A stretch of DNA of 64,000 nucleotides from Desulfobotulus alkaliphilus (GTDB lineage Bacteria > Desulfobacterota > Desulfobacteria > Desulfobacterales > ASO4-4). Below are positions 12,171 to 62,312 of this stretch, one piece after another; position 1 is the stretch's first letter; each line of letters opens with the position of its first letter. The DNA lies in contig NZ_VLLC01000007.1 of assembly GCF_007830435.1 (NCBI RefSeq), positions 1 to 64,000 on the forward strand. The letters are read 5' to 3'. Both the position numbers and the translations under genes were made by a program. The notes beneath the pieces are model-generated. The model made no database searches. It had not been told where the DNA came from and was given only the letters and a program-made list of their open reading frames with translations.

Positions 12171-12184
12171 TTTTTTCTCTTTAT

Positions 12185-12261
<77 letters not shown>

Positions 12262-12270
12262 AAAAACAAA

Positions 12271-12306
12271 AAAACGCCCTGCACATGACAGGGCGTTTTC
12301 TTTTTA
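12271..12306. terminator. Bidirectional terminator between tRNA-Pro and the STAS gene
   Basis: The stem AAAACGCCCTG/CAGGGCGTTTT has a T-rich tail on the plus strand and an A-rich run on its left side that becomes a T-run on the minus strand. It can end both the tRNA and the convergent STAS transcript. Confidence 0.85.
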
Positions 12307-12328
12307 AATCAGACACCATTCTAAAGGT

Positions 12329-12640: not shown

Positions 12641-12731
12641 GGCATGCACTCCGTATATTATAGAAAAAGAGATGCCGGGGCTCCGACAATGGGAATACTT
12701 AGAAATGGCGGGATTTCATAAGGGGCCTTGA

Positions 12732-14336: not shown

Positions 14337-14419
14337 GAAAAAAATTTTTCTGATTTTTTCAAAAAGTCCCGTTTCCCCTGCATGCCAAGGGGCTTCATTT
14401 AATTTTTAAGGAGAATGCC

Positions 14420-17050: not shown

Positions 17051-17069
17051 ATAAAAACAGGAGGTTTCC

Positions 17070-45793: not shown

Positions 45794-45811
45794 GTTTGAG
45801 AGGAAAGCCAT

Positions 45812-45841
45812 TTGACAAAGGCACCCATTCTTCACTAAAAG
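45812..45841 (+). promoter_or_regulatory. Possible BREX promoter
   Basis: TTGACA (45812-45817) is followed 18 bp later by TAAAAG (45836-45841). A second -10-like TATACT occurs near 45862. This is the only promoter-like segment between the terminator and brxF. Confidence 0.35.
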
Positions 45842-45954
45842 CAAAGACTGTTGGGATTATACTGCAAAATCCAGATAAAACTGCAGGCGGTTCGGCAGAT
45901 ACGTCCGAAAGGCCTGCAATCACGATATATTCAAGCATATGTTCAGGGGTAGCC

Positions 45955-46491
45955 ATGGTTGAAGCCATGCATCATAAAATCAGAGAATCCATGGAGTCCG
46001 CAGAAGGTCTGTATTACCGCCTTGTGCTGCTGACGGGTAAAAGCGGTTCGGGCAAGACCAGGGTTCTTCGGGATATGGCTGAGGAATACAAAACCACCAT
46101 CCTCAATATCAATCTCCTTCTTTCGGGCAGGCTGCTGGAGCTTTCGGAAAAACAGCGGACACTCAGGCTACCCGGCATCCTTGAAGAAATAATCCGATCT
46201 GAAGAGCATAATAATGATGACAGGCATAGGGGAGCTGGTACGCCCCTTATCCTCGATAATACAGAGATCCTGTTTGATAAGAATCTGAAACAGAATCCCC
46301 TGCGGCTTCTGCAGAGTATTTCCAGAAACAGGCTGATTCTGGCTTCATGGAACGGAACCCTTGTCCGTGGTAAACTGCAATATGCCGAAATCGGTCACCC
46401 TGAGTACCAAAGCTATGATTCGGACGATATACTTATTGTGGACATGGAAGCAGGGGCCAAAAAGGATTTACCCGCAGGGGACCGGTCATAA
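45955..46491 (+). CDS. brxF: BREX type 3 protein BrxF (P-loop ATPase)
   Basis: BrxF is specific to type 3 BREX phage-defence loci. The 178-residue protein has Walker [15 protein letters not shown] (near residue 26) and a Walker B-like [12 protein letters not shown] choose ATG 45955 because CAGGGG lies five bases upstream and the protein then starts just ahead of the P-loop domain. The open frame runs 53 codons further upstream without resemblance. It is the first gene of the plus-strand BREX operon. Confidence 0.85.
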
Positions 46492-46532: not shown

Positions 46533-49500
46533 ATGAAATACGGAGACCTTATTCAGTTCGATCCCATTGAGTCTGTGGTTCAGCTGCGTGATGCGGACAG
46601 ATCTGCCGCTGCTCAGAGCCTTGTGAACACCTATGTTATTTCCGATGAAATGGCCGAACGGCTCACACAGCTTGTCATTCCTCAAATGCAGTTCGATCAG
46701 CCTATGGACAATAAGGGACTGCTGGTGGTCGGAAACTACGGAACGGGTAAATCGCACCTCATGTCTGTGATCTCCAGTATTGCCTCAGATGCTTCTCTGC
46801 TGGATGCATTGAAAAATGATAAGGTGCGTGAATCTGCATCCCAGATTGCAGGACGGTTCAAGGTCATCCGGACAGAGATTGGAGCCACCACCATGTCCCT
46901 GCGGGATATCCTTGTGGCAGAACTGGAAGAGCATCTCGAAAAACTTGGTGTGGAATATGTTTTCCCTGAAGCAGACACCATCAGCAGTCACAAGCGGGCC
47001 TTTGAAGATATGATGGACAGGTTCAGCACTACTTTTCCTGACCAGGGCCTGCTGCTGGTGGTCGATGAGCTGCTTGACTACCTACGCACCCGAAAGGATC
47101 AGGAATTGATTCTTGATCTCAACTTCCTCCGTGAGGTTGGTGAGGTCTGCAAGGATCTGCGCTTTCGCTTCATGGCCGGTGTCCAGGAGGCCATTTTTGA
47201 CAGCCCCCGCTTTGCATTTGTTGCCGACAGCATCCGCCGGGTAAAGGATCGTTTTGAACAGATCCTCATTGCCCGCAATGATGTGAAGTTTGTTGTGGCC
47301 GAACGCCTGCTCAAAAAAAACGCCGAGCAACAGGCTAAAATCCGGGACTACCTGATGCCCTTTGCCAGATATTACGGCAATCTTAACGAACGCATGGATG
47401 AGTTTGTCCGACTCTTTCCCGTCCATCCGGATTACATTGATACCTTTGAACGGGTGACCGTGGTGGAAAAACGGGAGGTCTTAAAAACCCTGTCCGTTGG
47501 AATGAAAGGCATCATAGATAAGGACGTGCCGCAGGACGAACCCGGCCTGATCGCCTTCGACAGCTATTGGGGTACCCTCAAGCAGAACGCTTCGTTCCGC
47601 GCCATTCCCGAAATCCGGGCAGTCATTGATTGCAGCCAGGTTCTGGAATCCCGCATCGAGAACGCCATCACCCGCAAACAATACAAGCCGATGGCGCTAC
47701 GCCTGATCCATGCTCTGTCCGTCCACCGCCTTACCACTGGCGACATCTTTGCCCCCATGGGCGCATCCGCCGAGGAACTGCGCGACCGTCTCTGCCTGTT
47801 TGATCCGCTGATCGCCGAGCTGGGTAGCGACGAACCCGACAAGGATCTCCAGACCCATGTGGAAACGGTCCTGCGCGAGATCCACAAGACAGTCAGCGGC
47901 CAGTTCATCTCCTTCAATGCTGACAACCGCCAGTTCTATCTTGACCTGAAGAAGACCGATGACTTCGACGCCCTGATCGACAAGCGGGCCGAAAGCTTGG
48001 GGCAGGCTCAGCTCGACCGCTTCTATTACGAGGCGCTCAAGCGGGTCATGGAATGCCAGGACGCCACCTATGTAACCGGCTATAAGATATGGCAACACGA
48101 ACTTCTGTGGCATGAGCGTAAGGCAGCCCGCACCGGCTATCTCTTTTTCGGTGCTCCCAATGAGCGCTCCACCGCCGTGCCTCAGCGGGACTTCTACCTC
48201 TATTTTATTCAGCCCAACGATCCGCCCCGCTTCAAGGACGACAAGGTCAATGACGAGGTCTTTTTCCGCCTGAAAGGCACAGACGAGGAATTCCAAACCG
48301 CGCTGAAGAGTTATGCGGCCGCCCTGGACCTTGCCGCCACCTCATCGGGCCACGCCAAGGCCACCTATGAATCGAAGGCCAACGGCTTCCTGAAGAAGCT
48401 GGTCCAGTGGCTGCAGAAGCACATGAGCGATGCCTTCGAGGTCACCTATCAGGGCCGCTCCAAGTCCATGACCGGATGGGCCAAGGGGAAATCCATCCGT
48501 GATCTGTCCGGCTTGTCGCCCCACGAGACCATCAACTTCCGTGACCTGGTGAACACCATCGCCGGTGTCTGCCTGGCTCCGAACTTCGAGAACCAGGCCC
48601 CGGACTACCCGTTCTTCTCGGTTCTGATCACCGGCAACAACCGGGCCCAGGCCGCGCAGGACGCCCTGCGGGCCATCGCCGGGCAGAACCGCACCAAGCA
48701 GGCCACGGCCGTACTGGACGCCCTGGAGCTGCTCGACGGCGAGAAGATCGACCCCTACAAGTCGAAGTACACCAAGTTCATCCTCGATGCCGTCAAGGCC
48801 AAGGGGCACGGCCAGGTAGTGAACCGCAGCGAGATCATCCAGGACGACCACGGGCTGGAATACATGAACCCCGGCGGTGGTCGGCTTGAGCCGGAATGGG
48901 TGGCGGTCATCCTGGCTTCGCTGGTCTATTCCGGCGACATCGTGCTCGCCATTCCGGGCAAAAAGTTTGACGCCACCGGACTACAGCAGCTTGCCGCGAC
49001 CGGCATGGACGAGCTGGTCCGCTTCAAGCACCTGGAGCAGCCCAAGGAATGGAACCTGCCCGCGCTCAAGGCGCTGTTTGAACTGCTCGGCATGACGCCG
49101 GGCATGGCCCAGCTCGTCACCCAGGGCAAGGACGAGCCGGTGCAGAACCTGCAACAAGCGGTGGGCAAGATCGTCAAGCGCATCGTCATGACCCAGCAGA
49201 CCCTGCGCGAAGGGCTCTCCTTCTGGGGCCTAAACCTGCTTGCGGGAACCGACCTGGCCAGCCAGGCCAGCGGGCTGATTGATGCCAAGGGCTTCTTTGA
49301 ATCGCTCCAGGCTTACTCCTCGCCGGGCAAGCTGAAAAACTTCCGCTACAGCGCTCCCGAAGTGCTGGCCCATGAAAAGGCCGTGAAGGCGCTCGATGAG
49401 TTGGACGCCCTGCGTGAGTTCATCATGGACCACAGCCCGACGGCCTCCTGGCTCTCCACCGCCGAGGCGGTGCTGCTCGCCGAGCATGACTGGGTGGATC

Positions 49501-50264
49501 GCATGAAGACCACCCGGCAGGATGTGCTGGATGCCCTCAAGCAGGCCGACCTGACCGAGCTGGCCAGCCAGTCCCAGTCCATCGGGGCCAAGCTGCAAAA
49601 GCTGAAAAAGGATTACACCGTCGCCTACATCGGCCTGCACACCAAGGCCCGGCTGGGGGTGAACGACGACAAGCGCAAGGCAGGACTGCTGGGCGACCAG
49701 CGGCTGCAAACCCTGCTCAAACTGGCCGGTATCGACCTGATGCCCCGGCAGCAGCTCACCGATTACCAGAATCGCCTGGCCGGACTGAAAAGCTGCTTTG
49801 CCCTGACCGAGCAAAACCTCGACGCCTCGCCCATCTGCCCGCATTGCGGGTTCCGGCCTTCGGTGGAAACAGGTGCGGCGGCAGGCTCGCAGATGATCGA
49901 CCAGATGGACGCCCAGCTCGACGCCATGGTGACGGCCTGGACCTCCACCATCCTCAGCAACCTGGAGGACCCGATCACCCAGGCCAACATGGATCTGCTG
50001 AAGATCGACGACCGCGAACCGCTGGAGGCCTTCATCAAATCGAAGGAACTGCCGGTGCCGCTGGACAGCAACTTTGTCCACGCCCTGAAGGAAGTGCTCT
50101 CCGGTCTGGTGAAAGTCACCGTCAAGGCGCAGGAGCTGCAACAGGCTCTGCAGGTTACCGACGGCCCGGCCACCCCGGCGGAGATGAAGAAACGCTTTGA
50201 GGAGTACATCGATCAGCTCACCAAGGGCAAGGACCCGGCCAAGGTGCGGATCGTTATGGAATAG
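46533..50264 (+). CDS. brxC: BREX protein BrxC (DUF6079-type AAA+ ATPase)
   Basis: BrxC is the large conserved ATPase of BREX systems. The 1243-residue protein has Walker [14 protein letters not shown] (residues 66-78), Walker [13 protein letters not shown] near 177 and a zinc-knuckle-like CPHC near 1108. Base composition changes inside the gene. Up to about 47.55 kb it is like the host (26 of 60 G+C at 46621-46680). From about 47.6 kb to the end it is G+C-rich with G/C-ending codons (40 of 60 at 48601-48660 and again at 49501-49560). This suggests a recombined or donor-derived 3' part. The frame is intact. Confidence 0.88.
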
Positions 50265-50268
50265 AAAA

Positions 50269-50327
50269 GTCACGGGTCGCGAGTCATGAGTCACGAGTCT
50301 ATGACCCAAGACCCGCGACTCGGGACC
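50269..50327. repeat. Inverted array of 7-bp repeats, array A
   Basis: The first half reads GTCACGG, GTCGCGA, GTCATGA, GTCACGA on the plus strand. The second half reads GTCCCGA, GTCGCGG, GTCTTGG on the minus strand. The consensus is GTCNCGR with no spacers. It starts five bases after the brxC stop and ends 22 bp before the four-helix-bundle gene. Confidence 0.88.
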
Positions 50328-50349
50328 AGATGACCTGAGCGGAGCGAAT

Positions 50350-50811
50350 ATGGCAAGGATTGAAAAGTTTGAAGATATCGAGGCATGGCAGCGGGCAAGA
50401 CAGCTCGCCAAAGCCGTGTATGCCGTCACATCGGAAGGAAGGTTCGCTCGCGATTTCGGACTGCGTGACCAGATTCAAAGAGCAGCCGTTTCGGTAATGT
50501 CCAACATTGCCGAAGGCTTTGAGCGTGGTGGCGATGTTGAATTCCGACGATTCCTTGCCATCGCAAAAGGCTCTGCCGGTGAAGTCAAAGCGCAGCTTTA
50601 TGTGGCTCTCGATGCCGGGTTGATTGACCAGACTGCTTTTGACTCGCTTTACAAATCAGCCACAGAAACAGGAAACCTCATTGGCGGTTTCATGCGCTAT
50701 CTGAGTCGAGGCCAGAAGAGTCGCGAGTCTCGGGTCTCGGGTCACGAGTCAGCGAGTCAAAATAGAACCCAAGGACTCGGGACCCGCGACTCGAAACCCG
50801 CGACCTCTTAG
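50350..50811 (+). CDS. Four-helix-bundle protein (23S rRNA intervening-sequence family), copy 2
   Basis: The 153-residue protein has the family core FEDIEAWQRARQLAKAVY, LRDQIQRAAVSVMSNIAEGF and FLAIAKGSAGEVKAQL, ending near residue 119 (MRYLSRG). The remaining 34 residues, rich in Arg, Ser and Glu, are encoded by the 7-bp repeat array B. They are therefore probably an accidental tail. GCGGAG precedes the ATG. This gene does not belong to canonical type 3 BREX. It sits inside the operon in the same orientation, with repeats on both sides, like a small mobile unit. Confidence 0.85.
   Translation: MARIEKFEDIEAWQRARQLAKAVYAVTSEGRFARDFGLRDQIQRAAVSVMSNIAEGFERGGDVEFRRFLAIAKGSAGEVKAQLYVALDAGLIDQTAFDSLYKSATETGNLIGGFMRYLSRGQKSRESRVSGHESASQNRTQGLGTRDSKPATS
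50720..50805. repeat. Inverted array of 7-bp repeats, array B
   Basis: Plus-strand units GTCGCGA, GTCTCGG, GTCTCGG and GTCACGA are followed by minus-strand units GTCCCGA, GTCGCGG, GTTTCGA and GTCGCGG, again head to head. The array overlaps the 3' end of the four-helix-bundle gene and ends about 20 bp before the pglXI start. Confidence 0.88.
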
Positions 50812-50827
50812 AGAATCGGAGTAATTC

Positions 50828-53656
50828 ATGAGCGACAAATACGGACAGCAACAGACGATGTTCGAGACAGAAGAACCCGCGACCCGCGACTCGGGACCCG
50901 TGACCTGCTTAGGCATGACCTTCGAGAACGACGAGGCCCGCCGTGCCCACTTTACCGAGGAACTGCGCAAGAAGCTGCAAGAGCCGGAGTTCCGCAAGAT
51001 CGAAGGATTTCCCATCGGCAGCGACGAGGACATCCTGAACCTGAGTGATCCGCCGTATTACACCGCCTGCCCGAACCCGTGGATCGCTGACTTCATTGCC
51101 GAATGGGAGACGCAAAAGCCGGAAAAGCCTGAGGGCTATCACTACCACCGTGAACCTTTTGCTTCTGATGTTGGCGAGGGTAAATACGATCCTTTTTACA
51201 AAATGCATCCTTATCCGACCAAAGTTCCTCATAAAGCTATTATGAAGTACATACTTCATTATACCGAGCCCGGGCATATCGTATTCGACGGATTTTGCGG
51301 CACAGGGATGACTGGAGTTGCTGCACAAATGTGTGGCGATCGTGATGCAGTTGTTTCACTTGGGTTTCAGGTAAAACCCGACGGTACAATTCTTCGTGAG
51401 GAAACTGAAGACAGTGGCAAGAAGACCTGGGTTCCTTTCTCTAAGATTGGCGCGCGGCGAGCCGTTTTAAACGATCTTTCTCCTGCGGCAGGCTTTATTT
51501 CTTATAATTACAATACACCTATCGACATCTCATCCTTTGAGAAAGAATCAAATCGCATCCTGAAAGAGGTCGAAAAAGAGTGTTCGTGGATGTATGAAAC
51601 AAAACACTCTGACGGCCGCACTGGAAAAATTAACTATACCGTTTGGTCAGATGTTTTTGTTTGTCAAGAATGTCTTTGTGAGGTGATATTCTGGGACTCA
51701 GCCGTCAATAAAGAACAGGGAACTGTTAATGATAAATTCCCGTGCCCTCATTGCTCATCTCAGTTAACGAAGAGAAATATGGAGAGAGCATGGATCACAA
51801 GATTTGACCCTCATCTGAAAGAAACAATACGACAAGCAAAGCAGGCTCCTGTCAAAATAAACTACTCTCTAGGTGGTAACCGGTTTGAAAAAAGACCAGA
51901 TGCAGATGATCTGGCCAGAATTGAAAAATCAGAGAGTATGCAGATACCACACTGGTTTCCGGTAGCGGCACTGCCTGACGGGTTCAATACATCACAGCCA
52001 ATTCGCTCTCATGGCATTACGCATCTCCATCATTTTTATTCTAACAGGAACCTTTGCGCTCTTGCGTCATATTTAAGCAGATGCACGACTCCAGCGCTTC
52101 GATTGGTTTTGACAAAAGTTTCTGGACAAATCACCAAAAGGTATCGCTTTACTTACCAGTCAGGTGTTTGGGGGGCAGGCGGAGGACCACAATCAGGTAC
52201 TTTATATGTTCCATCTTTGATTAAAGAGCTCAATATCATTGAGCAAATGAAAAGCGCCATCAGAGATCGGATTAAGTCTGGCTCGCCTTTCAAATCAAAG
52301 CTCAGCACAATATCAACCTCATCTGCAACAAACTTCCGAGACGAGTGTAATGCTGTTCTTGACTATGTATTTATAGATCCACCATTCGGCTCTAATATTA
52401 TGTATTCAGAGCTTGCGCTGCTTTGGGAAGAGTGGCTTGGTGTAAAAACGAATAATGAAAAAGAAGCCATCGAAAATAGTGTTCAAAACAAGGGGTCCGA
52501 CGAATATCGCAAGCTGATGTCTTCTGCATTCAGAAGAGCTTTTGAGCTACTCAAGCCAGGCCGCTGGATGACCGTTGAATTTTCAAACACTAAGGCAAGT
52601 GTTTGGAATAACATTCAAAGCGCTATGGCCGAAGCCGGGTTTATTGTTGCAAATGTATCTGCTTTAGATAAGAAAAAAGGTAGTTTTAAAGCGGTAACAA
52701 CCCCAACGGCAGTCAAACAAGACCTCGTTATCTCAGCCTACAAACCCAATGGTGGTTTTGAAGAACGCTTTCAGAACGAGGCGCAAACCGAAGCAGGCGT
52801 TTGGGATTTTGTCCGCACCCATTTGAAGTATCTGCCGGTCACGAAACAACAAGGAGCCTTGCTGCAGTTCGTCCCGGAACGCGATCCCCGCATTCTGTTC
52901 GACCAGATGGTAGCCTACTACGTCCGCAAGGGCTACCCCGTGCCGATCTCGAGCCAGGAGTTCCAGATTGGGCTGTCGCAGCGTTTCATCGAGCGCGATG
53001 GCATGTATTTCCTGCCGGACCAGGTGGCCGAATACGACCGCAAGAAGATGACCTCCGGTGCCCCACAGCAGCTTTCGATGTTCGTCTCTGACGAGGCATC
53101 TGCGATCCAATGGCTGCGACAGCTCATCAAGGAAAAGCCACAGACCTTCTCCGACATCAACCCTCAGTTCATGCAGCAGCTTGGCGGCTGGAGCAAGAAC
53201 GAGGCCCAGCTCGACCTGCGCGAACTGCTAAACCAGAACTTCCTCTGCTACGACGGCAAAGGCCCGGTGCCCGAGCAGATCCACGCCTACCTTTCCACCA
53301 ACTGGAAAGAGCTGCGCAACCTGCCCAAGGATGACCCGGCGCTGGTGACCAAAGCCCGTGACCGGTGGTATGTGCCCGATCCCAACAAGGCGGGCGACCT
53401 GGAGAAGCTGCGCGAGAAGGCACTGCTCAAGGAGTTTGAGGAGTACAAAGAGGTCAAGAAGAAACTCAAAGTTTTCCGTCTGGAGGCCGTCCGCGCCGGA
53501 TTCAAGAAAGCCTGGCAGGAGCGCGACTACGCCGTCATCGTCGCCGTGGCCGATAAGATCCCCAACAACGTCCTGGAAGAAGATCCCAAACTGCTCATGT
53601 GGTACGATCAGGCAGTAACAAGATCAGGAGATAACAGCGGAGGAGGGCTTTTATGA
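50828..53656 (+). CDS. pglXI: BREX type 3 adenine-specific DNA methyltransferase PglXI
   Basis: PglX marks host DNA in BREX. The 942-residue protein has SAM motif I VFDGFCGTGMTGVA (near residue 153), the catalytic DPPF in VFIDPPFGSN (near 517), a further DPPYY near 76 and a zinc ribbon CQEC...CPHC (about 280-320). Residues 16-26 (EPATRDSGPVT) are encoded by a 33-bp block of 7-bp repeats, in frame. Composition is mosaic: both ends are G+C-rich, while the middle (about 51.13-52.76 kb) is A+T-richer (26 of 60 G+C at 51661-51720). The middle includes the presumed specificity region. CGGAG precedes the ATG. Confidence 0.88.
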   Translation: MSDKYGQQQTMFETEEPATRDSGPVTCLGMTFENDEARRAHFTEELRKKLQEPEFRKIEGFPIGSDEDILNLSDPPYYTACPNPWIADFIAEWETQKPEKPEGYHYHREPFASDVGEGKYDPFYKMHPYPTKVPHKAIMKYILHYTEPGHIVFDGFCGTGMTGVAAQMCGDRDAVVSLGFQVKPDGTILREETEDSGKKTWVPFSKIGARRAVLNDLSPAAGFISYNYNTPIDISSFEKESNRILKEVEKECSWMYETKHSDGRTGKINYTVWSDVFVCQECLCEVIFWDSAVNKEQGTVNDKFPCPHCSSQLTKRNMERAWITRFDPHLKETIRQAKQAPVKINYSLGGNRFEKRPDADDLARIEKSESMQIPHWFPVAALPDGFNTSQPIRSHGITHLHHFYSNRNLCALASYLSRCTTPALRLVLTKVSGQITKRYRFTYQSGVWGAGGGPQSGTLYVPSLIKELNIIEQMKSAIRDRIKSGSPFKSKLSTISTSSATNFRDECNAVLDYVFIDPPFGSNIMYSELALLWEEWLGVKTNNEKEAIENSVQNKGSDEYRKLMSSAFRRAFELLKPGRWMTVEFSNTKASVWNNIQSAMAEAGFIVANVSALDKKKGSFKAVTTPTAVKQDLVISAYKPNGGFEERFQNEAQTEAGVWDFVRTHLKYLPVTKQQGALLQFVPERDPRILFDQMVAYYVRKGYPVPISSQEFQIGLSQRFIERDGMYFLPDQVAEYDRKKMTSGAPQQLSMFVSDEASAIQWLRQLIKEKPQTFSDINPQFMQQLGGWSKNEAQLDLRELLNQNFLCYDGKGPVPEQIHAYLSTNWKELRNLPKDDPALVTKARDRWYVPDPNKAGDLEKLREKALLKEFEEYKEVKKKLKVFRLEAVRAGFKKAWQERDYAVIVAVADKIPNNVLEEDPKLLMWYDQAVTRSGDNSGGGLL
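50873..50905. repeat. 7-bp repeat block inside pglXI, array C
   Basis: On the minus strand the units are GTCACGG, GTCCCGA, GTCGCGG and GTCGCGG. The block is 33 bp, exactly 11 codons, so the reading frame is kept. It has one orientation only, unlike arrays A and B. Confidence 0.85.
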
Positions 53657-54729
53657 CAAAAAACCAAAAAATCCCCGTAAAAATAAGACGGATAAGCATT
53701 CGCAATTACAAGGGCATTGATACACTTGAAATGGATTTTCCCGCCCCCCGAATGCCCGATGATCCGGATATCCTGATTATGGGCAGCCAAAACGGCTTGG
53801 GCAAGTCCTCCATTATTGAGTGCTGTGCCTTGCTCTTGCTATCACTGACTCAAAGGGAAGAGAGGTTCAAACTGCGTGACCGTTACACCATTGTGAATGT
53901 ACCGGATTTGCTCATTAAATCTGGCTGTCATTTTGCGGAAATAAGCGGTGATATTGTTATTGGTGATGAAACCAGTACTGTTCATGTTAGAATAGATCGT
54001 AATGGTGTAATAAAAATATCAGGAGAAATACTCCGAGAAAAAATTATCGAAAATGAACTTTTTAATTCCGAGACTGAAGTTGAAGACTTCATTAAGGCAA
54101 TATGTGGCTTTACACCCAACCCTGTTATGGAAAACAAATTTCTTCTTTTCCACAGCTATAGGAAAGTCCAGGAGGGCAATCCTGAATTAGGAATGATGGT
54201 AGAGGGACGTTCACCAAAACGCCCTCCATTTCAGCGTTATGAAACACCAATGAGCACCTTCAAACTAAGAATTCTGCGCTCTCTGATGGGGCAGGCCAAT
54301 CTGTTTGAGCTTGGAGATGACGAAGATCCGGCGGAAACCATAGAAAAGCTCAACGAGCTGGTTCGATTTTATGCCCATGGTACCATCAGCAAGCTGAGGC
54401 CATCACCGGATAATACCGTTGACTTTCGCATAAAGCCCGTAAACGGTGAAGGCTCCTTTACCTTTGACGGACTGAGTTCCGGTCAAAAGGAAATCATTTC
54501 CACGCTGTTTCTCGTCTGGTACCACACCCGAAACAACCCCTCTGTAATCTTCATTGATGAACCGGAGCTGCACCTCAATGCCCAGTGGCACCGGAGTTTT
54601 GTCAAAATGCTTTTGCAAATGTCTCCGCAGAACCAGTACATCATGGCAACCCACTCCGAAGATATTATGGATTCGGTAAGCGAAGATCGCCGTGTTCTCC
54701 TTCTGGGCAAGGATGAGGGGGAGCTATGA
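53653..54729 (+). CDS. ABC-type AAA ATPase (SMC/OLD-like), first gene of the cassette inserted in BREX
   Basis: The 358-residue ATPase opens with the RecF/SMC-like IRRISIRNYKGIDTLEMDF, then Walker A GSQNGLGKSS (44-53), the ABC signature DGLSSGQKEI, Walker B VIFIDEPELHL and the H-loop MATHSEDI. No TOPRIM or other nuclease domain is fused, unlike OLD proteins. It may work with another cassette protein, as PtuA-like ATPases do. The ATG overlaps the pglXI stop (ATGA). Composition falls sharply from the G+C-rich pglXI 3' end. It is not part of canonical type 3 BREX. Confidence 0.8.
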   Translation: MTKNQKIPVKIRRISIRNYKGIDTLEMDFPAPRMPDDPDILIMGSQNGLGKSSIIECCALLLLSLTQREERFKLRDRYTIVNVPDLLIKSGCHFAEISGDIVIGDETSTVHVRIDRNGVIKISGEILREKIIENELFNSETEVEDFIKAICGFTPNPVMENKFLLFHSYRKVQEGNPELGMMVEGRSPKRPPFQRYETPMSTFKLRILRSLMGQANLFELGDDEDPAETIEKLNELVRFYAHGTISKLRPSPDNTVDFRIKPVNGEGSFTFDGLSSGQKEIISTLFLVWYHTRNNPSVIFIDEPELHLNAQWHRSFVKMLLQMSPQNQYIMATHSEDIMDSVSEDRRVLLLGKDEGEL

Positions 54730-54821
54730 TCCGTGTAAAAACAGGTATCCGTGCCGAAGAAGTCCGGCTGAAAAGCCAGCATTTGCTTTTTCAGGCGGTA
54801 ACACGGATGGGAGGGGAGTAA
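54726..54821 (+). CDS. Small ORF of 31 codons between the ATPase and GHKL genes
   Basis: The ORF begins at an ATG overlapping the ATPase stop (ATGA) and ends at a TAA just before the GHKL gene's GTG. It carries GGGAGGGGAG at its 3' end, which is also that gene's ribosome binding site. The product, MIRVKTGIRAEEVRL plus 16 residues, is basic. It fills the gap exactly and could couple translation, be a small component, or be the remnant of a partner such as a DUF4435 protein. Confidence 0.4.
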   Translation: MIRVKTGIRAEEVRLKSQHLLFQAVTRMGGE

Positions 54822-54824
54822 CCA

Positions 54825-55697
54825 GTGAAGCTCAACCTTGGCACAATCAGAAGCAATTGCAGTGGTTTTGAAGGTATAGCCCATATTGCCGACAAGACGA
54901 AGAATATTTGCTATGATTCCATTGAACTGGATTTTTCATCCTGCAGTTTTTTTGAAGCCAATATGGCGGCACCCCTATATGCCGTTATTGCACGACTTCG
55001 TGATGAGCTGAATGATGTGACCATTGCCAATGTGCCATCAGGAGTAAGTAGGATTCTCCGGAAAAACAAATTTCTGAGCATATTTAATCAACCTGATTTA
55101 TTGGACATCAATCAGACAACACTTCCCTTCAAGATTTTCAAACTACATGCAGGCGAGCAGTTTAATGATTATCTCGACACCTACATGAAAGGAAGGGGGA
55201 TTCCGACCATGTCTAAGGCCTTAACAAAACGCTTTAGACAGAGTCTGTTCGAAATATTTCTCAACGCAACTATCCATTCTCAGTCTTCATCGGGAATTTT
55301 TGTGTGCGGGCAATTTTATCCAAATAAACATCGGTTGGATTTTACCATTGCTGATGCCGGAGTCGGCATTCGGGAAAATGTACGCAGATATACAGGGAAG
55401 GCAACACTCAACTCCTGCAAGGCCATTGAATGGGCCATGACAGATGGTAATACCACAAAAACCGGGAATCAGCCGGGGGGTCTTGGGTTGAAGCTGATCA
55501 AAGATTTTATTCGAATGAATGGTGGAAAAATTCAGCTTGTATCAAGGTTTGGATATTATGAATTTTCTGCAAACGGTGAGGCTATTCAAAAAATGGATAA
55601 TGATTTTCCAGGAACCTGCATAAATATTGAAATTAACACAGATGATACAGGTAGTTACTGCTTAAAATCAGAGCTGAAAAACGAAGATATTTTTTAA
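54825..55697 (+). CDS. STAS-like/GHKL ATPase (anti-sigma-kinase-like)
   Basis: The 290-residue protein has an N-terminal STAS-like region (about 1-100, with SIELDFSSCSFFEANMAAP) and a C-terminal histidine-kinase-type ATP-binding domain. The N-box is FEIFLNATIHS (E143, N147, H151), the G1 box DAGVG (177-181) and the G2 box PGGLGLKLI (217-225). No histidine phosphorylation domain is present. The start is GTG with GGGAGGGGAG upstream. It precedes a DUF4325 STAS-like protein, so the two resemble a partner-switching pair. Targets are unknown. Confidence 0.82.
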   Translation: MKLNLGTIRSNCSGFEGIAHIADKTKNICYDSIELDFSSCSFFEANMAAPLYAVIARLRDELNDVTIANVPSGVSRILRKNKFLSIFNQPDLLDINQTTLPFKIFKLHAGEQFNDYLDTYMKGRGIPTMSKALTKRFRQSLFEIFLNATIHSQSSSGIFVCGQFYPNKHRLDFTIADAGVGIRENVRRYTGKATLNSCKAIEWAMTDGNTTKTGNQPGGLGLKLIKDFIRMNGGKIQLVSRFGYYEFSANGEAIQKMDNDFPGTCINIEINTDDTGSYCLKSELKNEDIF

Positions 55698-55714
55698 AAT
55701 ATAAGGAATCTACT

Positions 55715-56071
55715 ATGGGTGATCAAATTAAAATAAAGGTAGCGGATCTGATAGGCAGTCCGCTCTGCATATCCGCTGAGGACGGCCAGAAAGTATTTGA
55801 CAAGATCGAACAACTCCTAAGAGCTGGAAAACAGGTTAGCATTTCCTTTGAGAATGTAAGCATGTTGATCTCACTTTTTCTGAATGTTGCAATTGGGCAG
55901 CTCTATGGCTCTTTTAGCGAGGATGAGATTCGGACTCAGTTGAAAGTTGAAGGACTTTCTTCCGATGACATGGAACTGCTCAAGCATGTTGTGGATAATG
56001 CCAAGAAGTATTATTCCAACAAAAAATCTTATGATGATGCATGGCTGGAGGAAAACAACAATGAGGAATAA
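55715..56071 (+). CDS. DUF4325 STAS-like protein
   Basis: The 118-residue protein has the DUF4325 signature ISFENVSMLISLFLNVAIG (43-61), which matches the STAS-like fold in which a D/S-E-G-V strand is followed by the S-F-L-N helix. Proteins of this type are often encoded beside GHKL ATPases. It starts 17 bp after the GHKL gene and overlaps the PIN gene by 11 bp, so the three genes are translationally linked. A role as switch between the ATPase and the nuclease is inferred. Confidence 0.8.
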   Translation: MGDQIKIKVADLIGSPLCISAEDGQKVFDKIEQLLRAGKQVSISFENVSMLISLFLNVAIGQLYGSFSEDEIRTQLKVEGLSSDDMELLKHVVDNAKKYYSNKKSYDDAWLEENNNEE

Positions 56072-56612
56072 GGCCTATGATCTTTCTTCCTATTCCTTCA
56101 GTTCGGATGAACAGATTCTTGTGGATACAAATGTCTGGCTTTATCTGTTCCCGGCACCAACTGGCTCATCAAATAAATTGGCGGCTCAATACTCGACCGC
56201 TTTCTCAAACCTTGTTTCTGCGAAAGCTCAACCCGTACTTGATCCAATAGTGTTAAGTGAATACCTGAATCGCTATGTAAGAATTGAGTGGGAGGGAAAC
56301 TACAAATCCCGACATCCGAAATTTAAAGATTTCAGAAATTCATCGGATTTCTCAACAGTTGCATCGGTAGCAGAAGCATTTTCCAAAAAAATCCTAAGTT
56401 TCTGCCAAATTCATTCCATACCTGCCAATGAACTGGATCTGAATCAGGCACTGGCTGATTTTTCGGCTGGAAAAGTCGATTTCAACGATGCAATACTGGT
56501 GGATATCTGCAAAAAAAGAAATCTTAAGTTAATGACCAATGACGGTGATTTTCAGAACGGTGGCATCAAGGTTTTAACCTCAAATCCAAGACTTTTGAGA
56601 GCCTGCCCATGA
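56061..56612 (+). CDS. PIN-domain ribonuclease
   Basis: PIN domains are Mg2+-dependent RNases, many of them toxins. The 183-residue protein keeps the acidic set: D22 (ILVDTNVWLYLF), E67 (VLSEYLNRY), D143 (FNDAILVDIC) and D161/D163 (MTNDGDF). GGAGG lies nine bases before ATG 56061. The longer frame from 55947 overlaps the DUF4325 gene and is unlikely. No VapB-like antitoxin gene is adjacent, so the preceding STAS/GHKL pair may serve as the control device. Confidence 0.85.
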   Translation: MRNKAYDLSSYSFSSDEQILVDTNVWLYLFPAPTGSSNKLAAQYSTAFSNLVSAKAQPVLDPIVLSEYLNRYVRIEWEGNYKSRHPKFKDFRNSSDFSTVASVAEAFSKKILSFCQIHSIPANELDLNQALADFSAGKVDFNDAILVDICKKRNLKLMTNDGDFQNGGIKVLTSNPRLLRACP

Positions 56613-56676
56613 TGCACAGCTACTTTTGTGTTTTTCATTGTCCATCTGTAGCACCCGATAATAGACGGCATAAATA

Positions 56677-59535
56677 ATGGCTGACTGGAAATACAGCACT
56701 ATACACAAAAGTGCGTGCAAGGTTGTTGATGAACAGACCCTTTGGGGGCAAACGGTATGTCGTGTCTGGTTGCCGAACCAGGATGCAGTGGTGCGTGTCC
56801 ACCGCTCAAGCCTGAGACCACTAAATGCGGATCTTCAGCCAGAAACAGAGGCCTTTCGCATAAGCTATGTAGCTTCTGCCGCCAAGGTGGCTGAGGTGCT
56901 GGAAGGCTCCAGAAGGCCAAAGGATGGCCATGTATTGCTGGCTCCCATGGAGTCCAGCGTTATTCCCCTGCCGCACCAGATCCATGCCCTTTCCAGGGCC
57001 ATATCCGGAGACAGGGTGCGCTACCTGCTGGCCGACGAGGTGGGGCTGGGCAAGACCATCGAAGCCGGTCTGATCCTGCGTGAACTCAAACTGCGGGGTC
57101 TGGTTCTCCGTACCCTGATTGTGGCCCCCAAGAGCCTTGCCCTTCAGTGGCAGGCTGAAATGAGCACCCATTTCAATGAGGGCTTTGCACTGGTCAATGC
57201 ATCGGATCTTGAAGCCTATGAAAGGATGATGCCCTTAAAAGCCGGAGCAGGCTCTAATCCATGGCATCATTTTCCCCAGGCAATCATCACCACAGATGCC
57301 TTCAAGCCCATCACCAGGCGCAGGGGTTGGAGCAGGGAAGCCGTCCAGCGTTACAACCTGCTTCGCCATGACCGGCTGGTTACAGCCCAGTGGGATCTGG
57401 TTATTGTTGACGAAGCCCACCGCCTTGGAGGCGCAACGGATAGTGTCGCCCGTTATAAACTGGGACAGGGCCTTGCGGAATCTGCCCCCTATCTGCTGCT
57501 TTTGTCTGCCACCCCGCACCAGGGAAAATCCGATGCCTTTGCCAGGCTGATGGGTTTGTTGGATGCCTCAAATTTTCCTGATTCCGAAAGTATCAAGCGG
57601 GACCGTGTGGCTCCCTTTGTCATCCGCACCGAAAAAAGATCGGCAGTTACGGCAAAGGGGGAGCCCCTTTTCAAGCCAAGAACCACACGCACACTGGCCG
57701 TTGACCTGAACAACTTCCCGGATCAGTTGAAGCTTTACGAAGAAGTGACAGATTATGTCAGGTTCGGTTATAATCTGGCACTGCATAACCGTTCCCCATT
57801 CATTGTCTTCCTTATGATTCTGCTACAGAGGATCGCATCTTCCAGTACAAGGGCCATTCGTTCAACCCTTGAAAGACGCCTTGAAAAACTTGAAGACATG
57901 AAGGATCAGGACAGATCCGGCATTGAACTGCTGATTGAAGATCTTGAGGACTTGACGGGTCAGGAGCTTCTCGATGAACTGCTGGATGTGAATGAACCCG
58001 GCAGAAAAAACGAAGTGGAACAGGTTCACTACCTTTTATCACTGGCAAAACAGGTTGAAACCGCAGGGCCTGATGCCAAGGTACTTCGTCTGATGGAGCT
58101 GATTTATCAGCTTCAGGGCGAAGAAAAGGATGATCATCTCAAGCTCCTTATTTTTACGGAATTCATCGGCACTCAGAAGATGCTGCAGGAATTTTTGCAG
58201 GAACGAGGTTTTATCTGTGCCACCATCAATGGTTCCATGGAAATGGAAGAGCGAAAAAAAGAGCAGCGCAGCTTTGCCGAAGAAGCACGGATAATGATTT
58301 CTACGGACGCAGGGGGGGAGGGTTTGAACCTGCAGTTTGCCCATGTGGTCATCAATTATGACCTTCCATGGAATCCGATGCGGGTGGAACAGCGCATCGG
58401 CCGTGTGGATCGTATTGGTCAGCCAAAGATTGTCCGGGCTTTCAACTTTGTTTTCCAAAACTCCGTTGAGTCCCGTGTGCTGGAAGTGATTGAGGAAAAG
58501 CTTTCCGTTATTCTCGAAGATACCGGAATCGACAAGACCCACGACATTCTGGACACTCCAATGGCAGGAGAGCTTTATGAGCAGATGATGACCCGTATTG
58601 TGATGGAAAACCGGGAAATCAGCCCTGAAGTAGAAAATATGCTTTCTGCCATAGAACAGGAAAGGGTGGAACTGCGGGAGCACAGCCCCGTTTATGGCAT
58701 AAAGGAAACTCCGGATATAGATGCGGCAGCAAGCCTGCAGGCACATCCCCTGCCGGAATGGGTTGAGCAGATGACTCTCAGTTATCTCCATTTAAAGGGT
58801 GGAGATGCCATCAAAAATGCCAATGGGTGGAAGCTGAGTTGGCCCGATGGTGAAGAGATGAATGGCTGTTTATTCAGGCAGAGGGAGTCTGAGCCCCTTT
58901 CCGACAGGTCTTGTCTTCTGAACCTTGAAAACAGCCGTATCCGTGGATTGGCCCTGAATTTGCCACAGATTGCCGCCGGGCAGCCCATCCCATGCGTAAG
59001 AATAAATGGATTGCCAGCCACCATTTCAGGTTTATGGGGGCTGTTTGAGATCCGTCTTCAGATTGAAATGCTCCATAAAATGCAGTTTATCCGAATCCCA
59101 ATGATACGGAAGGCTCATGCCTGTGCATTCTTAAGCGAGGAAGGCAGGCTGTTTATGCCCACTGCCAGGCATATCTGGGACACCCTGCCCACAGCAGAAA
59201 TCAAGGTACTGAATATGCTGAATCAGGATGATTCCACAAAAGCCCATCTGCTTTTGCAGGAAGCCATTGAGCAGGCCGGGCAGGAAATTTTTCATAGCCT
59301 TGAGCAGGCCCACCTTGCATCCTTAACCCATGAAAAGGAGCGGGCAGCTGTATCCTTTGCCTCACGGAGAACGGCCATTAAACGGGTAGGCCTCCCGGAA
59401 GTCAGGCAGTTCAGACTTTCCCGTCTTAAAGCAGAAGAAAATCAATGGAAAGAGGAACTGCTCTCAGCGCAGGAGACAATACCGGAAGTAAGGCCTTTGC
59501 TGATGATGAAAATTGAAAAAACACAGAAAAACTGA
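56677..59535 (+). CDS. brxHII: BREX type 3 helicase BrxHII (SNF2/RapA-like)
   Basis: The 952-residue SF2 translocase has Walker A LLADEVGLGKTIEAGL (117-132), DEAH in LVIVDEAHRLGG near 243, LLSATPHQGK, and in the second lobe MISTDAGGEGLNLQF and NYDLPWNPMRVEQRIGR. BrxHII is the helicase of type 3 BREX. Composition is host-like, unlike pglXI upstream. The ATG has no strong ribosome binding site. Its motor closely parallels the separate helicase at 7670-10780. Confidence 0.9.
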   Translation: MADWKYSTIHKSACKVVDEQTLWGQTVCRVWLPNQDAVVRVHRSSLRPLNADLQPETEAFRISYVASAAKVAEVLEGSRRPKDGHVLLAPMESSVIPLPHQIHALSRAISGDRVRYLLADEVGLGKTIEAGLILRELKLRGLVLRTLIVAPKSLALQWQAEMSTHFNEGFALVNASDLEAYERMMPLKAGAGSNPWHHFPQAIITTDAFKPITRRRGWSREAVQRYNLLRHDRLVTAQWDLVIVDEAHRLGGATDSVARYKLGQGLAESAPYLLLLSATPHQGKSDAFARLMGLLDASNFPDSESIKRDRVAPFVIRTEKRSAVTAKGEPLFKPRTTRTLAVDLNNFPDQLKLYEEVTDYVRFGYNLALHNRSPFIVFLMILLQRIASSSTRAIRSTLERRLEKLEDMKDQDRSGIELLIEDLEDLTGQELLDELLDVNEPGRKNEVEQVHYLLSLAKQVETAGPDAKVLRLMELIYQLQGEEKDDHLKLLIFTEFIGTQKMLQEFLQERGFICATINGSMEMEERKKEQRSFAEEARIMISTDAGGEGLNLQFAHVVINYDLPWNPMRVEQRIGRVDRIGQPKIVRAFNFVFQNSVESRVLEVIEEKLSVILEDTGIDKTHDILDTPMAGELYEQMMTRIVMENREISPEVENMLSAIEQERVELREHSPVYGIKETPDIDAAASLQAHPLPEWVEQMTLSYLHLKGGDAIKNANGWKLSWPDGEEMNGCLFRQRESEPLSDRSCLLNLENSRIRGLALNLPQIAAGQPIPCVRINGLPATISGLWGLFEIRLQIEMLHKMQFIRIPMIRKAHACAFLSEEGRLFMPTARHIWDTLPTAEIKVLNMLNQDDSTKAHLLLQEAIEQAGQEIFHSLEQAHLASLTHEKERAAVSFASRRTAIKRVGLPEVRQFRLSRLKAEENQWKEELLSAQETIPEVRPLLMMKIEKTQKN

Positions 59536-59538
59536 GAA

Positions 59539-61557
59539 ATGAAAAGCTGGAGAGACTCTATACTAAAAGATTTTATTCCCCATGTCAGTAGGCTGACCCT
59601 GGTTGCTGATCCGGATTGCCTGCTGACAGAAGAAAAAATGGGGATGGAACTTCGTGATCGTGGATTCGAGCTGATTGAATTCAATGACCCCGTTGAGTTC
59701 AGATATGCCTATGAATCAAGGTTCCGCTCCATTTGGGACCGGGGAGAGCACACCGATCTTGTGGTGATTCTTCGTCTTGATGATGCGGATCTGGAATCTT
59801 TGCCCTATGACCTGCTCCAGGCAGGGCGACAGCTTGCCTTCAATCTTGGTGATCTTTTTCCCAGCATGAGCTACCCGGTTATTGAAAAACTTGACAGAAC
59901 ACTTCTTGATAAACTCTTTGATGCCCAGCACAGATTGCAGCCAGAGCGCATGGGAGATAGGGCCACAAAGGATTTTATCCTCCGCCATGTCTTTGGTATT
60001 GCCCCAGAGCTTATAACAGAAGATGTGGCGCTGTTTCATACCCTTCTCAGGCTGCATTATGGCAAGGTCAGAATGCCTGAAGAACTTGCTGACAGGCTCA
60101 TAGAGATTCTAAAAAATGATGCGTTCAGGAGCTGGCCCCTTTCAGAAGTGGTGCCCGATGATAAGGCTTTTTTTGCTTTTCTTCAGGAACGCTGGCCGGT
60201 GTTTCTGGCAGGGATAAAAGTCGATGAACACGGTATCAAAACAGTTTCTGAAAAATTGTCTTCATTTATCAGTGAACCATTAAATTTACTTTATTCCGGG
60301 CCTGCCCACCTGCCCTTTGGTCATCAGGATATCAGGATTTACATTGACAATCTTTTTCTGGAAGGAAAATTGTCACCCATAGAAGCCCAGGGTATGGAAG
60401 CGGATGCCGGTTCATGGATCCGAAGCGGCATTGTCATACCCGGTCATGATGATACCGACCTTCGGTTTTCCCGTCTGTTTGAGCTCATCGAAAAAGAATG
60501 GCCCACAGCAGAAACACGGCACTCCGGCTGGATTGCTTTTGCCCTGAAATGGGCAGAACTCTCTTCACTGGTTCATTGTAGTTGCAATGAATCTTATCAG
60601 GCACGGCTTCATGGGCTGGGGGATACCCTGAATCTTTGCTTTGCGAGCTGGCTGGATGCACATTATTCCGGCCTGAGCACCCTGCCACCAACACAGCCCG
60701 CCATGCTGCACCATGTACCCCGTCGTCTGGCACAGGTAATTGAAGTATCGGCCAAGGGGCGCATTGCCCTGCTTGTAGTTGATGGCCTACCTCTGGATCA
60801 GTGGGTAAGTATCCGCCCTGTTCTGCAAGCACAAAACAATCATCTGCTCATGCGTGAATCCGCAGTCTTTGCGTGGATACCAACTCTGACATCCGTATCA
60901 AGGCAGGCGGTTTTTTCAGGAAAACCACCCATCTTTTTTCCAACATCCATACACTCAACGGGCAATGAGGAAAAGCTCTGGAAGCAGTTCTGGGAAAACC
61001 ATGGAATCTCCCGTCAGGATGTGGTTTACCAGCGTGGGCTGGGAGACGGAGATGTATCTGCCCTGCTTGAAGATTTGATCCATCCGGGCAAAACCCGAGT
61101 GGTGGGGCTTGTTGTGGACAAGGTGGATAAAATTATGCACGGTATGCAGCTTGGTTCAGCCGGGATGCACAACCAGATCCGACAATGGTGCCAGCACGGA
61201 TTTCTTGCGACCCTGATCGACCGGTTACAGGATGATGGTTATGAAGTCTGGCTGACTTCCGATCACGGCAACATCCAGTGTGAAGGCAGAGGAAGACCTT
61301 CTGAGGGTGCGATTGCCGAAACCCGTGGAGAGCGGGTTCGTGTCTATCCCACACCAGAACTGAGGTATCGGGTAGCAGAAAGCTTTCCCTTTGCTCATGA
61401 ATGGAAACCGACCGGATTGCCGTCGGGTTATTTTCCTCTGATAGCGGGTGGCCGTGATGCATTTGTAAGGCAGGGGGATAAGATTGTAGGCCATGGCGGT
61501 GCATCCATTGAAGAAGTCATCGTTCCCCTGATAAAATTTGAAAGAAAGACAAGTTAA
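59539..61557 (+). CDS. pglZ: BREX phosphatase-fold protein PglZ
   Basis: The 672-residue protein carries the alkaline-phosphatase-superfamily core in its C-terminal half: LLVVDGLPLDQW (near residue 414), PTLTSVSRQAVFSG, VGLVVDKVDKIMHG, WLTSDHGNIQ and VGHGGASIEEVIVP, which hold the metal-binding Asp and His residues. PglZ is the hallmark protein of all BREX types. It starts three bases after the brxHII stop and overlaps brxA by one base. Confidence 0.92.
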   Translation: MKSWRDSILKDFIPHVSRLTLVADPDCLLTEEKMGMELRDRGFELIEFNDPVEFRYAYESRFRSIWDRGEHTDLVVILRLDDADLESLPYDLLQAGRQLAFNLGDLFPSMSYPVIEKLDRTLLDKLFDAQHRLQPERMGDRATKDFILRHVFGIAPELITEDVALFHTLLRLHYGKVRMPEELADRLIEILKNDAFRSWPLSEVVPDDKAFFAFLQERWPVFLAGIKVDEHGIKTVSEKLSSFISEPLNLLYSGPAHLPFGHQDIRIYIDNLFLEGKLSPIEAQGMEADAGSWIRSGIVIPGHDDTDLRFSRLFELIEKEWPTAETRHSGWIAFALKWAELSSLVHCSCNESYQARLHGLGDTLNLCFASWLDAHYSGLSTLPPTQPAMLHHVPRRLAQVIEVSAKGRIALLVVDGLPLDQWVSIRPVLQAQNNHLLMRESAVFAWIPTLTSVSRQAVFSGKPPIFFPTSIHSTGNEEKLWKQFWENHGISRQDVVYQRGLGDGDVSALLEDLIHPGKTRVVGLVVDKVDKIMHGMQLGSAGMHNQIRQWCQHGFLATLIDRLQDDGYEVWLTSDHGNIQCEGRGRPSEGAIAETRGERVRVYPTPELRYRVAESFPFAHEWKPTGLPSGYFPLIAGGRDAFVRQGDKIVGHGGASIEEVIVPLIKFERKTS

Positions 61558-62312
61558 TGGGCAAGCGCCACGAAACCATCGGTATCAAACAGACAATCCG
61601 TTTCGACTGGATGCAGAAAACCGTTAATCTGCTGATGGCAGGGCTTGACCAGAAAGCTGTCCGGCAGGAACTCCATGATTACCTTTCTGAAAAAAAAGGA
61701 AGCGGGGCTGAAGAAGAGCGGGGCAAGACCTCCAGGTCACAGGCTGTCAATATACTCATGAATATCTGGGTTTCTCCGGATCAGGAACTGCTTTTATTCA
61801 GAGATGCTGCCCTTACCTTTCTTCGTGAACATCCATCCCTTGAACTTGCAGCACACTGGGCAATGATCTCTGCCGCCTATCCTTTCTGGTTTAATGTTGC
61901 CCGCCAGACGGGTCGCCTTCTGGCCCTGCAGGATCAGGTGACCCATAAACAGATTTCTACCCGTTTAAAAGAACAGTATGGAGACAGAGAAACCGTCAGC
62001 CGCTATGCCCGCTACGTCATACGCTCCTTTGTTGCATGGGGTGTGTTGAAGGATTTACAGGTCAAAGGATGCTATGGAAAAAACCCTGTGCTAAAAATCG
62101 AAGATGCCAGGTCTGCAGGCCTCATATTCGAATCCGCACTTCTGGCAACACCTGAGGCAAAAATACCCATGGGGCTCCTTTTAAACAACCCTGCCTTTTT
62201 CCCGTTTCAGGTTCCGGTCGTTACCGGTGATTCTATCTCCCGGAGCTATGACCGGATCGAACTAATTCGTTATGGTCTGGATGATGAACTATTGAAACTG
62301 TACTCTGCCTGA
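61557..62312 (+). CDS. brxA: BREX protein BrxA (DUF1819)
   Basis: BrxA is a small helical DNA-binding BREX protein. The 251-residue product fits in size and in blocks such as FLREHPSLELAAHWAMISAAYPFW, quoted here only as LREHPSLELAAHWAM and AAYPFWFNVARQTG. The start overlaps the pglZ stop (TAATG). It completes the order F-C-X-H-Z-A expected for type 3. An A/T-rich weak hairpin follows at about 62328-62375. Confidence 0.88.
   Translation: MGKRHETIGIKQTIRFDWMQKTVNLLMAGLDQKAVRQELHDYLSEKKGSGAEEERGKTSRSQAVNILMNIWVSPDQELLLFRDAALTFLREHPSLELAAHWAMISAAYPFWFNVARQTGRLLALQDQVTHKQISTRLKEQYGDRETVSRYARYVIRSFVAWGVLKDLQVKGCYGKNPVLKIEDARSAGLIFESALLATPEAKIPMGLLLNNPAFFPFQVPVVTGDSISRSYDRIELIRYGLDDELLKLYSA

Follow-up and report, generated by a model that had tools for sequence, protein, structure and literature searches.

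We analysed a 64,000-nt stretch of Desulfobotulus alkaliphilus DNA (NZ_VLLC01000007.1, positions 1-64,000), which is called the window in the following and to which all coordinates refer unless another locus is named. It carries a type 3 bacteriophage exclusion (BREX) operon with a complete core, since brxF, brxC, pglXI, brxHII, pglZ and brxA (6/6) were all recovered by profile searches. The genes of interest occupy the slot between the 3' end of the methyltransferase gene pglXI (50828..53656, + strand; PADLOC PglXI 1493 bits) and the 5' end of the helicase gene brxHII (56677..59535, +; PADLOC BrxHI/BrxHII 1291 bits). Here lie, all on the + strand, the gene of a full-length AriA-like OLD/ABC ATPase (53653..54729; PADLOC AriAB 1.4e-22, Pfam AAA_15 1.8e-16), whose ATG at 53653 overlaps the pglXI stop, an open reading frame (ORF) of 31 codons (54726-54821), and the genes vapK (54825..55697), vapS (55715..56071) and vapC (56061..56612). 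The original prediction, made from the sequence alone, had named the same five as an ABC-type ATPase overlapping the pglXI stop, a 31-codon ORF and GHKL, DUF4325 and PIN proteins within a type 3 BREX operon, which agrees with the ORF coordinates, the Pfam matches and the matches to all six core genes. We consider it very probable that the slot holds two tandem defence cargos, an AriA-like ATPase without its AriB-like effector and a complete VapKSC, that these are co-expressed with BREX, and that the slot serves as a cargo dock.

The three genes at 54825-56612, which share a single strand, are a complete vapKSC operon encoding VapK, VapS and VapC. VapS, a DUF4325 STAS antitoxin of 118 residues with DUF4325 (7.4e-19) as its sole Pfam match, and VapC, a PIN-domain RNase toxin by homology (PIN 2.9e-9), both match the Escherichia VapSC complex 9z7o in phmmer searches against the PDB (9z7o_A 2.9e-18 and 9z7o_C 5.4e-6, respectively), while VapK has no sequence match there at E 0.1. 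The start of vapC is best placed at the ATG 56061 rather than at the upstream TTG 55947. VapK has 290 residues and is predicted to combine an N-terminal STAS domain (about 1-90) with a SpoIIAB-like GHKL kinase (HATPase_c 9.6e-7); nothing, and in particular no helix-turn-helix (HTH), precedes the STAS domain. When the full AlphaFold2 model of VapK (predicted local distance difference test, pLDDT, 90.8) was ranked by structure, SpoIIAB came first (Z 9.5-9.7), followed by other anti-sigma kinases (8.6-7.6), with 7.4 for the best other row. The STAS half has no Pfam match at E 0.01, and the fold was used for it because hhalign against VapS found nothing; residues 1-96 modelled alone (pLDDT 88.4) align with STAS domains at a best Z of 10.8.

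The residues expected for such a system were surveyed in 79-84 aligned rows per protein, from which stretches with a length that is not a multiple of three had been dropped. Position 53 of VapS, the putative phosphoacceptor, is Ser in 75/84 rows and Thr in 9/84, and Ser53 aligns opposite Escherichia VapS Ser48 in the 9z7o match, a pairing that uses chain numbering corrected for an apparent 18-residue excess in the deposited chain. The VapK kinase box (E143, N147, D177, G179, G219 and G221) is present in 82 of 82 rows at each position. Position 42 of VapK (Phe42 here) is aromatic in 81/82, and its match to Escherichia Phe54 and CapK Trp68 is one by context. The acidic residues of VapC are found in 78/79 (D22), 77/79 (E67), 78/79 (D143) and 78/79 (D161) rows, the remainder being gaps, and Asp22 aligns opposite Escherichia VapC Asp28. 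The catalytic residues of the GHKL and PIN proteins are therefore intact in the window (Asp22, Glu67, Asp143 and Asp161 for VapC), as had been predicted. Two other assignments were considered and ruled out. Transcription control of the CapK-CapS type would require the winged HTH that CapS has at residues 112-184, and VapS is without HTH; a VapBC pair does not fit the neighbours of vapC, of which the upstream one has only DUF4325 in Pfam and the downstream one is brxHII.

Judged by its sequence, the ATPase appears to be the orphaned AriA-like half of a pair resembling the phage anti-restriction-induced system (PARIS). The second-best PADLOC profile is close (PtuA 1.6e-21 vs AriAB 1.4e-22), and retron ATPases as well as AriA (1.8e-5) are matched in the PDB, because of which the label PARIS-like rests mainly on the partner gene. 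In the related loci fetched for comparison (L-numbers in the following; G-numbers denote the genomes compared) the relatives of the ATPase in L161, L167 and L049 precede a gene starting with M-[VI]-x-V-x-x-x-IR-[AP]-EEVR. PADLOC assigns this partner to AriAB/AriB in L161 (1.6e-11) and L167 (1.2e-9), and the partner in L049 was judged by its start only. The window ATPase is 61% and 57% identical to the intact-pair ATPases of L161 and L167 over nearly the full length. Of its own partner only a stub is found, namely the first 22 codons (MIRVKTGIRAEEVRLKSQHLLF; 54726..54791, +), in which 43-49 of 66 nt are identical to the partner-gene starts in L161, L167 and L049. PARIS comprises both an intact AriA and an intact AriB, and the AriB-like gene is reduced to 22 codons in the window. 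The ATPase is probably a leftover.

Behind these 22 codons the AriB-like frame runs on into 33 nt (54792..54824, +) that match the 3' end of pglXI. Identity to the L039 pglXI 3' end, which lies directly before vapK in that locus, amounts to 32/33 nt and ends abruptly upstream of the 33 nt. The best match within the L039 pglXI gene is 32/36, compared to a maximum of 21/36 in 30 shuffles. The same 33 nt also provide a GA-rich, ribosome-binding-site-like stretch before vapK. On this evidence the 31-codon ORF reads as a chimeric recombination scar, in which an AriB-like start is fused to a pglXI end and which would go back to one recombination event at the slot; a role as a small antitoxin or regulator is ruled out by this composition. 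Since the scar matches the L039 pglXI 3' end, vapKSC was probably preceded by a pglXI 3' end in an ancestor; the ATPase module, which today follows the intact pglXI, was probably added to this arrangement and trimmed afterwards.

To judge how common cargo is at this place, we surveyed the slot in other genomes. PglXI was found in 25/389 sampled genomes of the window's class, at 33 places, of which 20 were fetched in addition to G036 and the window. In this class pglXI is separated from the following core gene by 0.5-10.8 kb in 20/21 judged loci; the exception is L171, where the slot is empty and brxHII is also missing. L169 and L190 end too early to be judged and are excluded from the counts. 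In other groups 8/10 judged slots are filled, L198 and L199 being empty (60 and 39 bp). In total 28/31 judged type 3 BREX operons hold cargo in the slot, so that the statement of the original prediction, according to which canonical type 3 BREX has nothing between pglXI and brxHII, had to be given up. The sample is not random, as L191, L192 and L193, three of the ten loci from other groups, were reached via genomes with vapK elsewhere. pglZ is the first core gene found behind pglXI in L161 and L172, brxHII is only a fragment in L164 and L173, and no convincing gene in operon direction was seen in the slots of L154 and L173. Many loci come from metagenome bins, whose taxon labels (e.g. Nitrosomonas, Actinobacteria) may be binning errors, and some slots lie on draft contigs.

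A recognised defence family is present in 17/28 filled slots. VapKSC is the cargo in the window, L040, L160 and L162, and a PARIS-like pair in L161 and L167, with an AriA/OLD-like protein in L203. Further cargos are IetAS (L159, L166), AbiU (L155, L204), PDC-S19 (L156), HEC-01 (L040, L163, L204), HEC-02 (L197) and Menshen NsnB-like proteins (L165, L168). The slot of L172 (G337:C99, ~7948-17588) contains a type III-D CRISPR effector operon between pglXI and pglZ, with matches to Csx1, Cas10, Cas5, Cas7 and Csx19. Cargo recognised by Pfam only comprises a Schlafen-like protein in L192, AAA_15/AAA_21 ATPases in L170, L191 and L193, and a four-helix 23S ribosomal RNA (rRNA) intervening-sequence protein (IVP) in L157. 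The proteins tested from L158, L164, L195 and L196 gave no family match. The PADLOC scan did not include L154, L157, L170, L173, L191, L192 and L193. Proteins combining Schlafen AlbA_2 and HATPase_c_4 domains were observed as BREX-3 cargo in L029 (13278-15119), L163 and L192; as the one in L029 sits between brxC and pglXI, this interval is a second cargo site.

A scan of genome contigs with the VapK alignment gave 166 relatives, of which the best 80 were kept. VapS is found in 80/80 of these loci and a PIN match in 78/80; L067 and L099, the two without one, lie on contigs that stop no more than about 260 bases from vapS. In 9/80 loci (L039, L040, L042-L046, L049, L104) vapK lies directly at a pglXI 3' end or a remnant of it, and pglXI 3' DNA within 600 nt upstream of vapK occurs in exactly those 9 and in 0/71 of the others. 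An SNF2-type helicase is encoded upstream in 12/80, the one that was profiled (L055) being HmaA; a weaker helicase match (L089) and a distant one on the other strand (L048) are excluded from the 12. In L033, a locus from a separate search, a C-terminal part of the HmaA helicase precedes the trio. A trio that is scattered with no defence association, which would have spoken against the original prediction, is thus not what we see. Within the window's class VapK was detected at E <= 1e-30 in 14/389 sampled genomes, and among the 13 apart from the window (flanks of up to 1.5 kb) 5 have pglXI 3' DNA beside vapK. In a tree of 82 VapK sequences, from which the frame-broken rows L049 and L115 had been removed beforehand, ten BREX-slot rows fall within one supported set of 16 (100/98) together with six rows that have no BREX gene in the fetched DNA (some of these contigs span 3-4 kb). 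On this tree a single change of the BREX label suffices if ungrouped rows are left aside. VapKSC has settled recurrently in one host operon; the sequences concerned are related and form a cluster, and their contigs were placed, mostly as metagenome bins, in several phyla.

Some variants of the trio were observed on the way. In L034 (999-3836, -) and L113, which has the same length and apparently is the same contig, VapK is fused behind ~650 residues with a weak AAA_22 match, perhaps another sensor; this extension is the longest among the 80 loci, followed by L058 (229 codons) and L062 (101 codons). L087 (8955-10870) has the order vapS-vapC-vapK in place of K-S-C, which no other of the 80 loci shows. 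Plasmid P5 of Deinococcus gobiensis (L002, 14447-16799) carries a stand-alone vapKSC with an HTH regulator gene before it.

Traces of exchange at the slot edges are not restricted to the window. L049 shows the mirror order, with pglXI, vapKSC, a pglXI 3' remnant, the ATPase and its neighbour, and brxHII, and in L040 pglXI and vapKSC are followed by a second whole pglXI and HEC-01. In L168 and L170 a brxHII 5' fragment and then a pglXI 3' fragment lie within the slot; defence-like genes flank these inner fragments on both sides in L168, and the first part of L170 is without a long gene in operon direction. By blastn an inner pglXI 3' copy was detected in 5/24 slots and an inner brxHII 5' copy in 2/24, with five of the 24 slots having been found through VapK. 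An additional 21-bp match in L049 (E 0.008) is at chance level. Control 150-mers from the pglXI interior match L040 alone, the locus with the second whole pglXI. Within pglXI the last 100 codons are among the best conserved parts and, at 0.71-0.75 DNA identity, resemble the catalytic region, compared to 0.41-0.45 in the centre. Judged by full-length BrxC, L166 (96%) and L165 (90%) are the nearest relatives of the window, and they hold different cargo. As the core genes moreover diverge together, it seems that cargo is replaced at a higher rate than core genes.

These observations suggest that recombination at the two edges of the slot has stacked and swapped modules, which would enter, accumulate and be lost at the 3' end of pglXI and at the 5' end of brxHII. 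The full form of this idea, namely that the interval is a dock loaded by homologous recombination, in which the pglXI 3' end travels with each cargo and modules are stacked, swapped and trimmed while the core is kept, appears to us evenly balanced between right and wrong. In such a dock the ribosome-binding site of the gene that follows can also be part of the pglXI 3' end. If true, the dock would offer BREX a route without a mobile element for collecting suicide effectors, and the fragments provide nucleotide-level evidence for how embedded defence genes may enter and leave a BREX operon.

Several points weigh against our interpretation of the locus. With 33 nt the window has a short scar, whose blastn match covers 21 bp at E 7e-4, and blastn found no scar in 19/24 slots; 8 further filled slots likewise had no scar beyond E 0.008 matches equal to controls. 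With 0.55-0.64 nt identity over codons 1-80, brxHII shows no special conservation at its 5' end. The core BREX genes diverge together (Spearman 0.77-0.93 over 22-25 loci), and therefore wholesale shuffling of the operon is not indicated. Concerning the ATPase, the AriB-like assignment of its partner is weak, with DUF4435 scoring just under the Pfam cut-off, and the L161 partner protein has no AriB match in the PDB; the AriA-like protein could also act in some other way. As to VapK, the Z of 9.7 for its kinase half is modest, and the predicted STAS half rests on structure prediction and alignment. Comparison of the VapK and VapS profiles by hhalign gave a probability of 0.55%, which is no match, and Foldseek with VapK 1-96 returned a best E of just 0.034, with STAS proteins in the top rows and the unrelated ClpP among the lower ones.

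By analogy to its Escherichia homologue VapC would be an RNase that is kept inactive by VapS. VapK, activated by single-stranded DNA (ssDNA) in the published model, would phosphorylate VapS at Ser53, and phosphorylated VapS would release VapC, upon which RNA would be cut, growth would stop and the population would be protected. VapKSC would then represent an independent growth-arrest module triggered by ssDNA or damage. Partner switching between a GHKL and a STAS protein with an RNase as output had already been proposed for the trio, and this mechanism is put forward and partly shown for the homologous VapKSC (PMC13373217), with the residues kept here. Gene overlap points to co-expression with BREX, which should hold for VapKSC as part of the operon, and VapKSC probably works alone. 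In L043 an intact vapKSC is accompanied by stubs of pglXI and brxA, and in L104 by a frameshifted pglXI 3' remnant; the draft genomes concerned gave no PglXI match (G017 at E 1e-100 and G414 at E 1e-80, respectively). That intact vapKSC persists in these two genomes speaks against a need for BREX, and a dependence on BREX is not supported. A function as back-up for BREX is possible.

The two halves of the window cargo also occur apart from each other. In L039, L040 and L160 vapKSC follows pglXI without an intervening ATPase, and in L162 nothing but an IVP gene separates the two; the ATPase is found without the trio and with its AriB-like partner in L161 and L167. This already weakens the interpretation offered in the original prediction, in which the five ORFs together make up a single abortive back-up cassette, with the PIN RNase fired once a failure of BREX is sensed. 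The genes do nearly touch or overlap and share the operon direction, and back-up effectors in BREX have been proposed, including OLD-ABC ATPases with PIN RNases and with PARIS cited as an anti-restriction sensor (main text of PMC12839542). However, the ATPase appears to belong to another two-gene module, the 31-codon ORF reads as a scar, and 71 of the best 80 loci are without pglXI 3' DNA within 600 nt upstream of vapK, so that we regard a single cassette as very unlikely. The orphan AriA-like ATPase might instead have acquired, by recruitment, the role of an additional sensor that sets off VapC. It aligns nearly over its whole length with the intact-pair ATPases, stands directly upstream of vapK and has kept an open reading frame though its partner is gone. 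A recent deletion would likewise leave the ATPase intact, and of the loci compared the window alone shows the order ATPase, stub, vapK; recruitment as a sensor is hardly credible to us.

More weight has to be given to the view that vapKSC is mainly an addiction module, which stabilises the BREX locus rather than acting against phages. vapKSC is a toxin-antitoxin system, and its persistence in L043 and L104, where BREX is ruined, fits such a role. On the other hand, the Escherichia operon shields E. coli from one phage by ~2 logs, for which VapC, VapS Ser48 and VapK Phe54 are required (PMC13373217), and the residues at these key positions are conserved here, with the match to Phe54 being made by context. 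We consider a predominantly stabilising function unlikely, and the two roles are not exclusive. Our preferred reading remains that of two separate modules in tandem, by which an odd five-gene cassette is resolved into two identified modules with a testable mechanism and the idea of a normally empty BREX slot is corrected.

The remaining genes of the operon flank this region on the + strand. brxF (45796..46491; PADLOC BrxF 5.6e-53, residues 57-219 matched) probably has its true start downstream of the listed TTG. It is followed by brxC/pglY (46533..50264; PADLOC BrxC 2160 bits), and brxHII is followed by the type 3 pglZ (59539..61557; NF033449 1.6e-258) and brxA (61557..62312; PADLOC BrxA 2.8e-106). 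The interval between brxC and pglXI holds an accessory gene for a four-helix 23S rRNA IVP-like protein (50350..50811; PF05635 5.4e-35) without a match in the PADLOC profile scan. Such small proteins recur in BREX-3 operons (window, L157, L162, L197), and their genes occupy both the brxC-pglXI and the pglXI-brxHII interval. Upstream of brxF two tandem paralogues of ~860 residues (40355-42931 and 43103-45691) have lipoprotein-like starts and a Met-zincin (DUF4953) match. Promoter-like sites in 50200-56800 are no more frequent than in shuffles (6 vs a mean of 8.3), and terminator-like sites number 12 vs a shuffle mean of 7.3 (standard deviation 2.8).

Three elements of this picture are known already, namely VapKSC (June 2026), a defence gene inserted at this very slot, and back-up effectors embedded in BREX. 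The literature searched contained no report of VapKSC recurring as BREX-3 cargo, of how often the slot is filled, of the scars or of the combination seen here. VapKSC was described by Chambers et al. 2026 in the EMBO J (PMC13373217) as a toxin-antitoxin system with anti-phage activity. According to the text of that paper Escherichia VapC is toxic and is bound and neutralised by VapS in a 2:2 complex, and a phosphomimic at VapS Ser48 abolishes neutralisation. Activation of VapK by ssDNA is a model derived from CapK and AlphaFold, which the authors could not test directly, and phosphorylation of VapS by VapK and the RNA target of VapC were also not directly shown in Escherichia. The trigger proposed there is ssDNA or DNA damage and not BREX failure. 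The window trio resembles the Escherichia system in the kinase-STAS-PIN order, the domains, the phosphoacceptor Ser, the kinase box and the acidic PIN residues; by context, it may also share the aromatic residue at the likely ssDNA site. It differs from the published description in its position inside a type 3 BREX operon. In that study 103/289 vapKSC have a PADLOC defence gene no further than 10 kb away; the main text mentions BREX three times (once in the introduction, otherwise in the references), never about vapKSC, and Dataset EV3 may hold BREX cases.

The closest precedent for the location is BxaP, which 21/7308 BREX metagenome-assembled genomes carry as a single-gene insertion in the PglXI-BrxHII interval of type 3 BREX (PMC10799925). 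It shares the slot and the accessory nature with the cargo described here and protects independently, likely by an abortive mechanism. BxaP is a different protein, and the passages of PMC10799925 that bear on it contain neither VapKSC nor recombination scars. Rakesh and Krishnan 2026 (PMC12839542) described back-up effectors that lie within BREX operons, including OLD-ABC ATPases and PIN RNases, in a main text without the words STAS, GHKL, DUF4325 and recombination. With PARIS (AriA-AriB) the window shares an ATPase and a stub that match AriA/AriB-like pairs in the same slot elsewhere; unlike PARIS, the AriB-like gene ends after 22 codons. SpoIIAB/SpoIIAA and RsbW/RsbV follow the logic of a STAS phosphoacceptor. 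This logic is also found in PMC13373217. According to its model VapK of the window shares the kinase fold with these systems, and the output here would be an RNase and not a sigma factor.

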